DNA from: Cyclobacteriaceae bacterium
GTDB lineage: Bacteria > Bacteroidota > Bacteroidia > Cytophagales > Cyclobacteriaceae
Assembly: GCA_016787725.1 (NCBI GenBank)
Contig: JAEUTZ010000021.1
Location: 496,001-560,000, forward strand
Length of the DNA stretch: 64,000 bases
Direction of reading: 5' to 3'
Both the position numbers and the translations under genes were made by a program. Below, piece after piece: positions 23,570 through 28,328 of this stretch (the first letter of the stretch is position 1; every line of letters begins with the position of its first letter). The notes below the pieces were generated by a model. That model did not search any database and was not told the origin of the DNA. It was given only the letters and a program-made list of their open reading frames with translations.

Positions 23570-24523
23570 TTATGTCTGTTTAAGCAGTTCCGCCAATACG
23601 GCTTGTGCTGCCCACACGCGGTTACCCGCTTGTAGTGTTACCATGCTGTTGGGGCCATCCAGAATTTCATCGCTTACTTCCACATTTCTGCGGACGGGTA
23701 AACAATGCATGATCTTGGCATTGTTTGTAAGAGCAAGTTTTTCATTTGTGAGCATCCACTCCGGGTCATTGCAATAAATCTTGCCGTAATCCTGGTAGGT
23801 GCTCCAGTTTTTTACATAAACAATGTCGGCATCCTTTAACGCTTCATCCTGATCGTGGGTGATGGTTGCCCCGTTCGTGAATTTAGAATCCAACTCGTAA
23901 TCTTCCGGATGGGTAATTACAAAATCAGCGTTGCCCCAGGCAGTGATCCATTGTGAAAAACTGTTAGCCACACATTGCGGCAAGGCTTTCACATGCGGAG
24001 CCCAGGTCATCACAATCTTTGGTTTTCTTTTTTCTTTAAAAGTCTCCTGGATGGTGATTAAGTCGGTCAGGCTTTGCAAGGGATGCAGGGTTGCACTCTC
24101 CAAACTCAGAATCGGCACCCCTGCATATTTGATAAACTGGTTGATGTAAAGTTCGCTGTAATCGTCTGTTTTGTTTTTGAGCGATGGAAAAGTTCGAACC
24201 CCCAGGATATCGAAATATTTTCCTAATACGGGAGCAGCTTCTTTCACATGTTCCACGGTGGATCCGCTCATGATGGCCTCATCTTCAAACTCCAACGCCC
24301 AGCCGTCCTGGCCAACATTAAAAACAATTGCATCCATGCCCAGATTTTTGGCTGCCAGCTGGGTACTGATGCGAGTTCGCATACTGGGATTGAGAAACAG
24401 CATGCCCAGTCGCTTGCGCTGGCCGAGGGTGGCGTCTTTAAAGGGATCGGCCTTAAACGCCAAAGCATTGGTTACCAGTTGTGAAATGGCGCTGACTTCA
24501 TGAACAGACAGGAAGTTCTTCAT
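23570..24523 (-). CDS. argF': N-acylornithine carbamoyltransferase (ArgF', AOTCase/SOTCase family)
   Basis: Transfers the carbamoyl group from carbamoyl phosphate to an N-acylated ornithine, replacing classical ArgF. 317 residues. Carbamoyl-phosphate site SMRTR at 47-51, HPLQSLTD, and HCLPVRRN near the C-terminus. Overall it closely resembles the Bacteroides fragilis enzyme. Residue 90, which decides between acetyl (Glu) and succinyl (Pro in B. fragilis) substrates, is Val here in STVEHVKEA. As I recall, Glu-to-Val at this site turned the Xanthomonas enzyme into a succinylornithine transcarbamylase, so the predicted substrate is N-succinyl-L-ornithine. Its start overlaps the argD stop by 4 bp. 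Confidence 0.93.
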   Translation of the reverse strand: MKNFLSVHEVSAISQLVTNALAFKADPFKDATLGQRKRLGMLFLNPSMRTRISTQLAAKNLGMDAIVFNVGQDGWALEFEDEAIMSGSTVEHVKEAAPVLGKYFDILGVRTFPSLKNKTDDYSELYINQFIKYAGVPILSLESATLHPLQSLTDLITIQETFKEKRKPKIVMTWAPHVKALPQCVANSFSQWITAWGNADFVITHPEDYELDSKFTNGATITHDQDEALKDADIVYVKNWSTYQDYGKIYCNDPEWMLTNEKLALTNNAKIMHCLPVRRNVEVSDEILDGPNSMVTLQAGNRVWAAQAVLAELLKQT

Positions 24524-25656
24524 AGCACGGCAGTCTGTTTAAGTTCAGCCGCGAGGGCTTCAAGAAAAATGTCGGCTTCTGCTTTCGTTAATGCCAGGGA
24601 GGGAAGTAAGCGCACGGTATTCGGTTTAGCTTCGCCTGTAAATATAGAGTGTTTAAAGAGTAAGTCCTTTCGTAAACCGGCAAGAGAATCGGGCAGGTCA
24701 AATCCAATCATCAGACCCTTGCCACGAATGTGCAGGATGGCGGGAAAGGTGGCGAGTTGTTCCATCCAATAAGTGCCAAGTTTCGCAGCGTTAGCCATTA
24801 GCTCTTGCCCATCAATCACTTCCAGTACCGCCAGACCGGCCGCGCAGGCCAGGTAGTTACCGCCAAAGGTGGTACCGAGCATACCGCTCCAAGGTTTAAT
24901 CGTGGGATGAATGAGAACGCCTCCGATCGGAAACCCGTTGCCCATCCCTTTCGCAATCGTGATCAGATCAGCTTCGATGCCGGCATGCTGGTGCGCAAAG
25001 AATTTTCCCGTGCGTCCATAGCCTGATTGCACTTCATCCAGAATCAAAAGCGCACCTGCTTTTTTACATTCGGAAACCAGCAGTCTCAAGAAAGAATCAT
25101 CGGGCAGTTGAATTCCACCTACCCCTTGAATGCCTTCAATGATCACGGCTGCTACTTCTTCGTTGATTGCATTCCTGAAGGCATCCACATCATTTAACGG
25201 GAGAAACACAATCTCATGGCCGGCATTGAATGGCGCTACAATTTTTGGATTGTCTGTAGCGGCCACGGCACCCGAAGTACGGCCATGAAATGCCTTCTTA
25301 AACGCAATGATCTTTTTTCGTCCGGTAACAAAAGAGGCCAGCTTCAGCGCATTTTCATTGGCTTCGGCACCCGAATTGCAAAGAAATAGGTGGTGACCGG
25401 GATACCCGGAAAGTTGACCGAGTTTCTCCGCTAACTTTTCTTGTAGTGAATTTTTTACACTGTTGGAGTAAAAACTGATCTGATCCAACTGACTCTTCAA
25501 GGCCTCCACAAACCGCGGGTGGTTGTGCCCGATGGAGATCACCGCGTGCCCGCCATAAAGATCCAGGTATTTTTTTCCTTCCCGATCCCACAACCAGGAA
25601 CCACTGGCCTTTACCGGCTCGATGGCGAAGAGGGGATAAACATCGAATAGTTTCAC
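24520..25656 (-). CDS. argD: N-acylornithine aminotransferase
   Basis: PLP-dependent transaminase making N-acylornithine from the semialdehyde and glutamate. 378 residues. NSGAEANENALK (95-106), the Asp-containing LDEVQSGYGRTG (Asp207) and the PLP lysine Lys236 in ITIAKGMGNGFP are all present. The start codon is GTG at 25656. The region just before it is the 3' arm of the inverted repeat that flanks the IVP gene, so the leader of argD is formed by that element. Confidence 0.94.
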   Translation of the reverse strand: MKLFDVYPLFAIEPVKASGSWLWDREGKKYLDLYGGHAVISIGHNHPRFVEALKSQLDQISFYSNSVKNSLQEKLAEKLGQLSGYPGHHLFLCNSGAEANENALKLASFVTGRKKIIAFKKAFHGRTSGAVAATDNPKIVAPFNAGHEIVFLPLNDVDAFRNAINEEVAAVIIEGIQGVGGIQLPDDSFLRLLVSECKKAGALLILDEVQSGYGRTGKFFAHQHAGIEADLITIAKGMGNGFPIGGVLIHPTIKPWSGMLGTTFGGNYLACAAGLAVLEVIDGQELMANAAKLGTYWMEQLATFPAILHIRGKGLMIGFDLPDSLAGLRKDLLFKHSIFTGEAKPNTVRLLPSLALTKAEADIFLEALAAELKQTAVL

Positions 25657-25660
25657 AAGG

Positions 25661-25691
25661 TTAAAAGTAAAAAGTTGAAAGTATAAAGTTA
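25661..25691 (+). repeat. Left arm of the inverted repeat flanking the IVP gene
   Basis: The core AAAGTTGAAAGTATAAAGT (from about 25671) is the partner of the arm at 26044-26079. It overlaps the IVP stop codon (25689-25691). Confidence 0.8.
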
Positions 25692-26042
25692 GGCCCGCAC
25701 TTTTTTTATAAGTGAAATGAGCATGGCTTTTATCTCGTTGGTTAATGAATTGATTTTCTCAAAATCTTCTCTAGTCAAGTATTCCAGCTCGTGACTTAAA
25801 AGAAGTAAGTATTCTACCTCCTGAGATGATCCAAAAGCTGATGGTAGATAATTGGCAAAGTCTTTTTTTGTTGACTTTCCTGCCCCCTCTGCAATGTTGG
25901 AAGGTATTGAAGCTGCTGCTCTTCTTAACTGATTGGTAAGTCCAAATTGTTCCTCTTTGGGAAATACTTTCGTGTACTTGTAAACAAGCAGAACATGCTG
26001 ATGCGCCTTTTGCCACACGATCAATTCTTTATAATTCTGCAT
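25689..26042 (-). CDS. Four-helix-bundle protein of the S23/23S rRNA intervening-sequence family
   Basis: 117 residues matching the IVP/S23 (four helix bundle) family throughout: ELIVWQKAHQHVLLVYKYTK, FPKEEQFGLTNQLRRAA, SIPSNIAEGAGK, then SFGSSQEVEYLLLL-type pattern in the third helix. Members are typically encoded inside 23S rRNA intervening sequences, or as stand-alone genes of unknown role. The protein is thought to form a pentameric helical bundle and possibly bind RNA. It is AT-richer than the arg genes around it, has no metabolic link to them, and is framed exactly by inverted repeats, so it looks like an insertion. Confidence 0.92.
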   Translation of the reverse strand: MQNYKELIVWQKAHQHVLLVYKYTKVFPKEEQFGLTNQLRRAAASIPSNIAEGAGKSTKKDFANYLPSAFGSSQEVEYLLLLSHELEYLTREDFEKINSLTNEIKAMLISLIKKVRA

Positions 26043-26043
26043 T

Positions 26044-26079
26044 TGACTTTACACTTTCAACTTTAAACTTTAAACTTAA
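26044..26079 (+). repeat. Right arm of the inverted repeat flanking the IVP gene
   Basis: Reverse complement core AAAGTTGAAAGTGTAAAGTCA, preceded by two more AAAGTTT units. It starts 2 bp before the IVP ATG and includes the argC stop codon (26076-26078). Confidence 0.8.
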
Positions 26080-27053
26080 AAAGCTGTTCCCTTCAACCTT
26101 AGCCCTTCCGTCTCCTCCAATCCAAACATCAAATTCATATTCTGCACCGCCTGGCCACTGGCTCCTTTTAACAAGTTGTCGGTAATGGAATGAATGGCGA
26201 GTTTGTCACCCACTTTTTCCAGGTTGATTAAACACTTGTTGGTATTCACGACTTGTTTCAGATCGATGGTCTCTCGGATAACATGCGTAAACGGATGGGG
26301 TGCATAATAGTCTTCATAAAGTTTAATAATCGCTTCCAGAGAAAGCGCGGTCGTAACCAGCGAGGTCACGAAAATTCCACGGGTAAAATCACCCCGCCAC
26401 GGCACAAAATGAACGGCTTCCGAAAAACCCGGTTGCAACGCCTTTAATGTTTGATAAATCTCGCCCAGGTGTTGGTGCGTGAGGGTCTTATAAGCCGAAA
26501 TGTTATTGGCACGCCAGGTAAAATGCGTGGTGTCTTGCAACTTTTGACCGGCCCCCGTAGACCCGGTAATTCCCGTGGTATGAACTTCCTTCAGGATTCC
26601 GGCTTTCGCCAACGGCAACAAGCCTAACTGAATGGTAGTGGCAAAGCACCCGGGGTTAGCAACGTTCTTGGCAGCCGTGATCTTCTCGCGCTGATATTCC
26701 GGCAGCCCGTAAACAAATTCACGATCACCGGTTTTATTATTCAATCGAAAATCATTACCCAAATCAATAATACGTGTGGCAGCCGGAAAGATATGTTCAT
26801 CCAATAACTTTTTACTTTCTCCATGGCTCATGCACAGAAACAAAACATCAACCGCGGGGTTGAAATCTGCAGAATAGAGGAGGTCCGTTTCCCCTAATAA
26901 ATCCGTGTGGGTTGACGTAACCGGTTTGCCGGCCTGACTTCGACTTTGTACAAAAGCGACCTCCACGTACGGATGATTCAGCAACAACCGCAGCGTTTCT
27001 CCCCCCGTGTATCCGGCACTGCCAATGATCCCGACTTTAATTTTTTCCTTCAT
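26076..27053 (-). CDS. argC: N-acyl-gamma-glutamyl-phosphate reductase
   Basis: NADPH-dependent reductase making the glutamate semialdehyde derivative. 325 residues, with the nucleotide-binding GIIGSAGYTGGETLRLL at the N-terminus and the catalytic Cys136 in NPGCFAT. The last codons and the stop lie in the arm of the downstream inverted repeat, so insertion of the IVP element set the present C-terminus (KGTAF). Confidence 0.94.
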   Translation of the reverse strand: MKEKIKVGIIGSAGYTGGETLRLLLNHPYVEVAFVQSRSQAGKPVTSTHTDLLGETDLLYSADFNPAVDVLFLCMSHGESKKLLDEHIFPAATRIIDLGNDFRLNNKTGDREFVYGLPEYQREKITAAKNVANPGCFATTIQLGLLPLAKAGILKEVHTTGITGSTGAGQKLQDTTHFTWRANNISAYKTLTHQHLGEIYQTLKALQPGFSEAVHFVPWRGDFTRGIFVTSLVTTALSLEAIIKLYEDYYAPHPFTHVIRETIDLKQVVNTNKCLINLEKVGDKLAIHSITDNLLKGASGQAVQNMNLMFGLEETEGLRLKGTAF

Positions 27054-27082
27054 CTATTTAACGCTAACTGCTTCAAGCATTT

Positions 27083-27138
27083 AAGCTGAAAGCTCTGATT
27101 GTCCTACTATAAGCATCTCACTTTAGAGCTTTCCGCTT
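27083..27138. repeat. Gene-less inverted repeat between argG and argC
   Basis: AAGCTGAAAGCTCT at 27083-27096 and AGAGCTTTCCGCTT at 27125-27138 are inverted copies with 13 of 14 matches, around a 28-nt loop. The second arm encodes the last residues and the stop codon of argG. The pattern (AAG-T/C-TGAAAG) resembles the arms around the IVP gene, so it may be a small relative or remnant of that element. Confidence 0.65.
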
Positions 27139-28328
27139 TCCGCTTCTCCTTTTACTTGATGATAAATCGCCACCTGATTCCCGAATATTTTAGTAAACCC
27201 TTTCACATCGTCCCCCGTCCAGCCCAGGTTCATTTCACCGTACTTGCCAAACTTAGCCGACATCAAGTCATACCTCGACTCAATGCCATTGATTTGAAAC
27301 CGGTAGGGATGTAAGGTAATCGAAACTTCACCCGTTACGTTGTGCTGCGAACTGGTTAGGAAGGCCTCCAGATCGCGCATCACCGGGTCGAGGTATTGAC
27401 CCTCGTGCAGCCAGTTGCCATAAAACTGGGCGAGTTGATCTTTCCAGCTAAGCTGCCACTTCGTAAGCACGTGCTTCTCCAATGCGTGATGTGCTTTGAT
27501 GATCAACACGGGTGCGGCCGCTTCAAACCCTACGCGACCTTTAATGCCAATAATCGTATCGCCCACATGAATGTCGCGACCGATTCCATATGGGCCGGCC
27601 ACGGCTTGCAACGCATGGATCGCCTCTACCGGATGTGAAAACGACTTTCCATTCACCTTCACCAATTGCCCTTTCTCAAAACCCACCTTCACATCTTCAC
27701 TTCCACGTTTAGTAACCTGTGTGGGCCACGCTTCTTCGGGAAGTTGCCCCAGGGAGTTCAATGTTTCCTTTCCTCCTACCGATGTTCCCCAGATACCTTT
27801 GTTAATGGAGTAACGGGCTTTCTCGGCACTGAAGTGGATTCCTTTTGCCTTCAGATAATTCACTTCTTCCTCGCGGCTTAGTTTCTTATCCCGGATGGGG
27901 GTAATGATTTCAGCGGTTGGGTGAAGGATCTGGATGATCATGTCAAACCGCACCTGATCATTCCCGGCACCCGTACTTCCATGGGCAACGGCATCAGCTT
28001 TCAGTTCTTTCGCATAAGTCGCAGCCGCCAATGCCTGGCTCATCCGCTCGGCACTCACGCTGAGTGGGTAGGTACCGTTTTTCAACACGTTTCCGAAAAC
28101 CAGGAACTTGATTACCTTCTCGTAATAGTTTTTGGTTTCATCCACCGTTTTGTGCGAGGCCACCCCCAGGCTCAGCGCGCGCTTCTCAATTTCCTTAACT
28201 TCTTCGGCACCGAAGCCCCCGGTATTCACCGTCAGGGTATGAACTTCATATCCCAGGTCCTTGGCCAAATAAATCGCGCAGTAGGAGGTATCCAACCCTC
28301 CGCTAAATGCCAGTACAACTTTTTTCAT
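27123..28328 (-). CDS. argG: Argininosuccinate synthase
   Basis: Joins citrulline and aspartate using ATP. About 401 residues from the ATG at 28328; the frame has a start six codons upstream, but the conserved N-terminus is MKKVVLAFSGGLDTSYC with the P-loop-like AFSGGLDTS. Further signatures: HGSTGAGNDQVRF and GIWGTSVGG. The final residues (GEAESGKL) are encoded inside an inverted repeat and look like an extension acquired from it. Confidence 0.95.
   Translation of the reverse strand: MKKVVLAFSGGLDTSYCAIYLAKDLGYEVHTLTVNTGGFGAEEVKEIEKRALSLGVASHKTVDETKNYYEKVIKFLVFGNVLKNGTYPLSVSAERMSQALAAATYAKELKADAVAHGSTGAGNDQVRFDMIIQILHPTAEIITPIRDKKLSREEEVNYLKAKGIHFSAEKARYSINKGIWGTSVGGKETLNSLGQLPEEAWPTQVTKRGSEDVKVGFEKGQLVKVNGKSFSHPVEAIHALQAVAGPYGIGRDIHVGDTIIGIKGRVGFEAAAPVLIIKAHHALEKHVLTKWQLSWKDQLAQFYGNWLHEGQYLDPVMRDLEAFLTSSQHNVTGEVSITLHPYRFQINGIESRYDLMSAKFGKYGEMNLGWTGDDVKGFTKIFGNQVAIYHQVKGEAESGKL

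Follow-up and report, generated by a model that had tools for sequence, protein, structure and literature searches.

Introduction

Intergenic heptanucleotide repeats of bacteria have been described for decades and their cause is not agreed (Mazel 1990, Mrazek 2007, as cited in later papers). The STRR heptanucleotides and heptamer hairpins of cyanobacteria, Xanthomonas and Beggiatoaceae are built from degenerate tandem 7-nt units (PMC4679880, PMC4692102, PMC2670836, PMC3488679, in excerpts). The same excerpts report 70 and 75 inverted heptamer pairs in two Xanthomonas genomes, and PMC4692102, as far as excerpted, gives only few such pairs for Nostoc PCC 7120. G-rich heptamers are found on the sense strand near stop codons and antisense near start codons (PMC4692102, same excerpts), like the arms described below. 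The arms of the present element, too, are tandem degenerate 7-nt units in intergenic DNA, as in an STRR. It differs in that the excerpted reports describe no enclosed gene and name no four-helix-bundle partner.

The S23/IVP family occurs widely and is called functionally uncharacterised (PMC11270868, in the part available). In the 23S intervening sequences (IVS) an S23/IVP frame lies in the loop of a terminal stem, which has 28 bp in the available text of PMC4990558 and about 30 bp here; in contrast, the element between argC and argD resides in a protein operon, outside 23S rRNA. Eighteen 23S_rRNA_IVP genes were reported in cas loci (PMC3936711), and cas copies are also among our loci (L154, L156, L162). 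The available portion of that report treats the family as CRISPR-Cas-associated and does not mention arms. Among the matches listed in a literature search, which left subscription papers and preprints largely outside, no paper ties S23/IVP or GxxExxY proteins to tandem-repeat arms.

The element between argC and argD

The window, i.e., the whole 64-kb stretch of DNA that was analysed, contains an operon-borne relative of the 23S IVS. It is situated in sense orientation between argC and argD:

24520..25656, minus strand: argD-type class-III aminotransferase, downstream host gene
25660..25689, minus strand: 3' arm (transcript sense), complementary heptads
25689..26042, minus strand: four-helix-bundle (IVP/S23, PF05635) coding sequence, 117 aa, stop codon 25689-25691
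26046..26075, minus strand: 5' arm (transcript sense), tandem heptads AAAGTTT/AAAGTTG/AAAGTGT
26076..27053, minus strand: argC, upstream host gene, semialdehyde dehydrogenase domains
27075..27145, minus strand: heptad hairpin without a gene at the argG-argC junction, AAAGCGG/AAAGCTC words

The 117-aa protein matches the PF05635 profile with E = 6.9e-39 (132.8 bits, cut-off 33.8) and TIGR02436 with 126.8 bits (cut-off 24). The arms have 30 nt each, are 87% complementary and 356 nt apart. When at least 26 of 30 complementary positions (ungapped) and a spacing of 250-600 nt are demanded, they are the sole pair in the window; the best pair in three shuffles of the window reaches 21 of 30. The start codon of the enclosed gene is 3 nt beyond the end of the 5' arm and the 3' arm shares one base with its stop codon. 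The host genes are close as well: the argC stop codon (26076-26078) adjoins the 5' arm and prolongs the heptad repeat, and the GTG annotated as the argD start is 3 nt past the end of the 3' arm. Rfam detects no rRNA within 24400-27600.

The arms are imperfect tandem heptads in which AAAGTT units follow each other at a step of 7 nt. With up to 2 mismatches, AAAGTTNAAAGTNNAAAGT has 6 overlapping matches versus 0.07 expected, and all 6 are in or at the edge of the arms. The RNA of 25640-26100 is predicted to fold with an inner helix of 19 bp and an outer helix of 11 bp (z = -2.24; 1 of 100 shuffles equally good); the duplex of both arms alone is calculated at -29.2 kcal/mol. A sequence-only reading of this DNA had placed gene and arms correctly within a few bases. 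Its 21-bp stem was about right. The repeats, which it let start 2 bp before the start codon, do adjoin that codon, with a gap of 3 nt, and the claimed overlap with the stop codon comes to one base. The hairpin at the argG-argC junction (27050-27155: -25.2 kcal/mol, z -1.7, 11 of 200 shuffles equally good) is possibly a relative of the element, weak when taken on its own.

Seven-base units and inverted arms in the protein family

PF05635 matches were found in 49 of 58 genomes searched at the order level, with 5 matches in the genome of the window itself. From the better matches 101 distinct genes with usable flanks were drawn. Self-similarity of the 100-nt flanks was scored at every lag from 2 to 14. 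At a score of at least 10, lag 7 appears in 44 of 101 genes, lag 14 in 37, lag 8 in 7 and every other lag in at most 1; lag 7 drops to 0 when the flanks are shuffled. Inverted arms, i.e., a pairing score of upstream versus downstream flank that reaches 15, are present in 58/101 versus 15/297 mismatched pairs from different loci. Other genes of the same loci have inverted arms in 9/463 cases and lag-7 flanks, at the same score, in 30/463. Thus, heptads are not exclusive to the PF05635 family. When each insertion site is represented by one element, a mean of 18.6 of 34 passes the pairing threshold.

The picture recurs far beyond the order. A global set comprises the best 80 of at least 586 relatives in a genome scan, from many phyla, 78 of them with both flanks. 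In these best 80 of at least 586, lag 7 is found in 47/78, lag 14 in 42, lag 8 in 9 and other lags in 1-3; inverted arms are seen in 52/78 versus 21/312 mismatched pairs. The neighbouring genes have inverted arms in 3/138 and lag-7 flanks in 17/138 cases. The best unit class is seven in 71 order-level genes, eight in 7, five in 5, nine in 2 and none in 16. The corresponding classes among the best 80 of at least 586 are seven in 61, eight in 8, five in 3, nine and eleven in 1 each, and none in 4. Below the pairing threshold remain 43/101 genes of the order-level set and 26/78 of the global set (best 80 of at least 586). In L031 and L154 the arms are, by eye, direct and not inverted repeats. A four-helix-bundle gene of a Muribaculaceae (L239) has nine-base arms of the TTGAAGTTG type.

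The aligned stems have a median length of 32.5-35 nt. The letters of the arms vary between loci; the recurring property is the length of the unit. AAAGTT as a fixed recognition sequence, which the sequence-only reading had put forward as a possibility, is not supported, since the letters vary by locus and it is the spacing that stays constant; a fixed-sequence terminal repeat was rejected for the same variation in letters. The same arms, which that reading proposed to look for at other family genes, recur in design (58/101 and, in the best 80 of at least 586, 52/78) and not in letters.

Within the order the genes are embedded in co-oriented surroundings: both neighbours are on the strand of the gene in 92/101 versus 370/585 controls, which were all genes of the order-level loci (p = 4e-9). 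In the global set (best 80 of at least 586, 12/80 without a neighbour in the stretch) this holds for 54/80, not significant against that same control (p = 0.54). The 50,697 phage records contain no match of the family at E 1e-5.

Polarity of arms and arrays without the gene

The arms have a preferred polarity. Summed over three sets (arms of 101, 78 and 12 loci), G exceeds C in 100/118 extracted 5' arms and C exceeds G in 104/116 extracted 3' arms. Avoidance of self-pairing within an arm would not alone fix the G-rich 5' direction. Arrays devoid of a gene follow the same direction (p = 0.005). Between same-strand genes, those nearer the upstream stop codon are G-rich in 20 and C-rich in 9 cases, and those nearer the downstream start codon are G-rich in 6 and C-rich in 17. 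This count uses 52/58 arrays, those with equal G and C being uncounted; L148 was excluded because its arrays are very long. G-rich heptamers with the same placement are reported for Xanthomonas and Nostoc (PMC4692102, in excerpt).

Carrier genomes often contain such arrays without the gene. Outside long ORFs, six genomes with no more than one family gene gave 0 heptad arrays in 400 kb, and nine genomes that have at least five genes gave 39 in 1.2 Mb; 7 of the 9 have some, and the carriers G009 and G044 have none in 100 kb each. The number of arrays correlates with the number of genes over 15 genomes (Spearman 0.72, p = 0.003, not corrected for kinship). In the AT-rich genome G054 some arrays are of low complexity and other lags are raised too. 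A genome without a detected gene may nonetheless harbour heptads: G003 (77% complete, no gene found), one of the six gene-poor genomes, shows 6 AAAGTT-type matches genome-wide and 0 in the 20 kb sampled. The AAAGTT count over 58 genomes serves solely to provide this counter-example; it is not evidence for the element because the reversed-pattern control also matches heptad arrays.

Insertion sites, arms and protein lineages

The four-helix-bundle protein is under strong purifying selection: dN/dS could be estimated for 20 of 64 close pairs and has a median of 0.08. Within an element the two arms change together. Over seven sites, which hold 4-16 elements apiece and 63 in total, the match of arms within elements sums to 1010 versus 815 +/- 26, and 0 of 20,000 within-site permutations are as high.

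In the protein tree, which has few columns and many forks open, the genes cluster by site, requiring 15 changes, against 58 when shuffled. Two sites, acdA and thiolase as named by reading the downstream protein, need 3 and 4 changes, so several lineages occur at each. Arms vary with the protein lineage: where two lineages share a site, their words differ. Extraction of arms succeeded for 65/101 elements. At the same site, pairs with a protein identity below 50% have an arm similarity of 0.23-0.25 (21 pairs), which is random-like; it increases to 0.43 at 50-60% identity (35 pairs) and to 0.53 above 60% (94 pairs). Elements at different sites with proteins more than 50% identical have arms only slightly alike (0.29-0.33, 90 pairs), and mean arm similarity between different sites is 0.22-0.33 overall. 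A comparison of 70-nt flanks had indicated that arms follow the site and not the protein; this was reversed with the extracted arms (65/101), and we attribute the flank result to conserved host coding sequence in the flank.

The argC-argD junction was readable in 28 genomes of the genus, and the gene is present in 9 of these, that of the window included, and missing in the rest. This comparison of relatives had been proposed as a check in the sequence-only reading. A tenth carrier, G020, is among the 101 order-level genes. In the tree, the ten proteins encoded at argC-argD in the genus form one group, with support of only 96/56. Six genomes have just 7-33 nt between argC and argD; G010, G025 and G027 have, by threshold, heptads at this junction without the gene. 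G013 and G024 are sisters by ArgD (support 100/99) and possess different lineages and different words at argC-argD. By eye, the two are alike at the end of argC as far as the stop codon and again at the start of argD, so they differ in the arms plus the gene. The suggestion that such elements spread as mobile units is supported only in part. In its favour are several lineages at some sites and the difference between sister species at argC-argD; against it, the genes group by site, no fixed end was seen, and no target duplication was seen when argC-argD junctions were read by eye.

Other inserts use this junction as well. In G001 and G006 (L053, L058) an extra frame, proC-like by eye, is located beside the element between argC and argD. 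G002, G003, G005, G015 and G033 have similar inserts without the element.

Unit length and protein lineage across phyla

The length of the arm unit is coupled to the protein lineage across phyla, with exceptions; the coupling is not strict. In a tree with 139 labelled proteins (121 seven, 18 eight) the eight-base unit requires 9 changes versus 17.3 in shuffles, 0/500 as low. A careful tree of 74 global proteins, 67 of them labelled (59 seven, 8 eight) and 7 unlabelled, its bootstrap not fully settled, requires 3 changes versus 7.7 in shuffles, again 0/500 as low. One clade with support 100/93 unites 5 of the 8 eight-base proteins, all with 8-nt arms; it was first spotted in the 139-protein tree, whose set overlaps that of the 74-protein tree. 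Its members come from Nitrospirota, Bacteroidota (two families), Thermodesulfobacteriota and a lambdaproteobacterium. Other Bacteroidota, Nitrospirota and Thermodesulfobacteriota in the 74-protein tree have 7-nt arms. Exceptions are L231, with 8 nt, which stands beside a 7-nt protein at 100/93, and L044, for which the same applies in the 139-protein tree.

GxxExxY genes: a second family with arms

GxxExxY (PF13366) genes, which by their Pfam name have a predicted nuclease fold, are present in 42/58 relatives, and their arms occur in the same genomes as those of the PF05635 family. We analysed 40 of a longer list (L356-L395), 39 of them usable. Of these 39 usable loci, 28 have inverted arms versus 18/156 mismatched pairs. 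At a score of at least 8, the 40 of a longer list show lag 8 in 11/39, lag 9 in 9/39 and lag 10 in 5/39; lag 7 occurs in 1/39. The units are degenerate, 8-10 nt long, with CGCAAAG, CGCAGAG and CACAGAG as frequent words. The unit tracks the protein family, not the host. The polarity of the four-helix-bundle arms is not seen around GxxExxY genes.

Copies in 23S rRNA, cas loci and plasmids

Of 72,556 plasmid records, 25 have a family match, 23 of the 25 being cyanobacterial. Twelve of the 25 loci were inspected by eye. Inverted heptad arms are seen in seven of these (L156-L162), direct heptads in L154 and eight-base units in L163; L155 and L165 are ambiguous or very degenerate. In an Azospirillum plasmid record (L164:286-3348) a four-helix-bundle frame with heptad arms is located inside 23S rRNA, and the LSU model covers the locus on both sides of the gene with 2549 bits. 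These arms link the operon copies with the classical 23S intervening sequences. The 23S-IVS architecture initially recognised at argC-argD is borne out: arms of the same design recur in the family, and one copy is in the rRNA itself. Rfam reports no rRNA in any of the 26 of the 80 global loci that were searched, so L164 alone supports this link.

In the cyanobacterial plasmids L154, L156 and L162 the gene and heptad arrays are positioned between cas6 and cas4 and between cas10 and a cmr3-type gene. Host operons are cas and tra by annotation, and suf, thiolase and others by reading the downstream protein.

Mechanism and alternatives

What is new is the arm rule: a constant unit length, free letters, a preferred polarity and two arms that change together. 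The rule is coupled to the protein lineage, and a second family follows a different one. We consider it reasonably probable that the element is a selfish or commensal one-gene RNA-stem element of the IVS type, whose protein recognises the arm repeat. Once transcribed with the operon, the arms would pair over about 30 bp and hold the four-helix-bundle message in the loop of this stem. The protein, a pentamer by homology, would bind the repeats in a per-unit register, one protomer per 7-nt unit, and thereby stabilise, protect or spread the arms. RNase III would cut the stem, whose predicted length suits this enzyme, and part the argC and argD messages, leaving the host genes intact. Tandem slippage and arm-to-arm copying would rewrite the word and keep its length, and the element would persist because its place between the stop codon of one gene and the start codon of the next makes it almost harmless.

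The PDB homologues 2GSC and 2RLD have five chains per entry, which suggests a biological pentamer. These five chains in two crystal entries, together with the median stem of 32.5-35 nt, are the ground on which one protomer per unit may be envisaged. TRAP (tryptophan RNA-binding attenuation protein) is a ring which reads evenly spaced RNA triplets, one per subunit; it is an unrelated protein and only a mechanistic analogy for the putative register. A protein reading the spacing in a stem which RNase III may cut appears to us the best reading.

A neutral origin is the most serious competitor, though we regard it as unlikely. Here, a polymerase slips by 7 nt, quasi-palindrome correction copies the arms and the gene is a tolerated passenger. 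Among long simple repeats, heptanucleotides are reported to outnumber all other classes in the majority of genomes studied, and the contact length of the polymerase has been proposed as the cause (PMC4679880 citing Mrazek 2007, as excerpted), and heptad arrays without the gene exist, also in G003, where no gene was found. Yet the unit length clusters by protein clade across phyla; that it tracks the protein family and not the host speaks most strongly against slippage as a full explanation. Moreover, PF13366 arms in the same genomes have 8-10 nt, and the arrays, 39 per 1.2 Mb in the nine gene-rich genomes, are absent from the 400 kb of the six gene-poor ones. Strong purifying selection, the clustering of the ten argC-argD proteins of the genus (96/56 only) and the position of the arms near stop and start codons would also agree with a regulator beneficial to the host, a TRAP-like autoregulated switch, not selfish, in which the protein binds the arms of its own message and tunes argC/argD. 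This we deem improbable: close relatives without the gene keep the operon, and the same family is found in unrelated operons (cas, tra, suf, thiolase, others).

Two readings that would assign the arms to a separate enzyme are less probable still. An ordinary DNA transposon or MITE with a transposase acting in trans, e.g., of the Y1/RAYT type, would account for terminal inverted repeats, for several copies per genome and for presence or absence between related species, but is very improbable, as the arm letters differ between sites, the nine-copy genome G018 has no Y1_Tnp match and the argC-argD junctions, by eye, show no target duplication. Insertion sequences and MITEs have fixed terminal repeats common to their copies; none are seen here (between-site similarity 0.22-0.33). 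REP/REPIN elements (RAYT) are GTAG-tagged fixed palindromes; the arm letters vary by locus. The genome of the window has two Y1_Tnp matches (E 6.6e-9 and 4.7e-6). Least probable of all is an accessory of a retroelement, with an Avd-like protein and a reverse transcriptase that copies the arms as in diversity-generating retroelements. Templated copying would explain that arms change together, and the bAvd and Avd models do match weakly (E 2.8e-6 and 1.4e-7, both under their cut-offs); this is the whole likeness to Avd/bAvd, the present protein attaining 31.8 bits against a cut-off of 80. No RVT_1 match is found in the genome of the window nor in G001, G018 and G025, which have 9, 9 and 10 family copies and are 96-98% complete. 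RVT_1 occurs in 23/58 genomes overall, including other carriers. Reverse transcriptase and Y1 transposase are not supported as general partners, no match being found for RVT_1 in these rich carriers and for Y1_Tnp in G018.

The selfish or commensal stem element may be one case of something wider. Only tentatively, and as a joint proposition that may well be too broad, we consider a class of protein-specified, sequence-free mobile one-gene stems whose arms would be recognised or written by length and not by letters. The protein would measure steps of 7, 8 or about 9 nt like a ruler, with one subunit for each unit; the cargo would be a four-helix bundle or GxxExxY, perhaps others; and the 23S IVS, the cyanobacterial and xanthomonad heptads and hairpins without a gene would be members, relics or offshoots.

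The heptad puzzle and the S23/IVP puzzle are joined by a unit length that goes with the protein lineage, with exceptions, and the former may have a protein behind it. This would explain the repeated appearance of the family as a supernumerary gene of operons (arg, cas, tra, others) and within fragmented 23S rRNA. For annotation it is a warning that function is not to be read from such gene neighbourhoods. If proteins select repeats by spacing alone, genetic elements would have a new means of maintaining their ends in the absence of a fixed sequence.

Further observations on heptad arrays

Two loci with unusual arrays deserve mention. L148:7113-13569 contains, at several places, very long heptad arrays of up to about 260 nt with GGGAGTT/CGTAGTT words. 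In L107:10404-11120 two heptad arrays enclose a pair of small frames; by eye this pair resembles what we take to be a toxin-antitoxin pair of the RelE/ParE type. It is possible that heptad arrays hold other cargo, as at L107.
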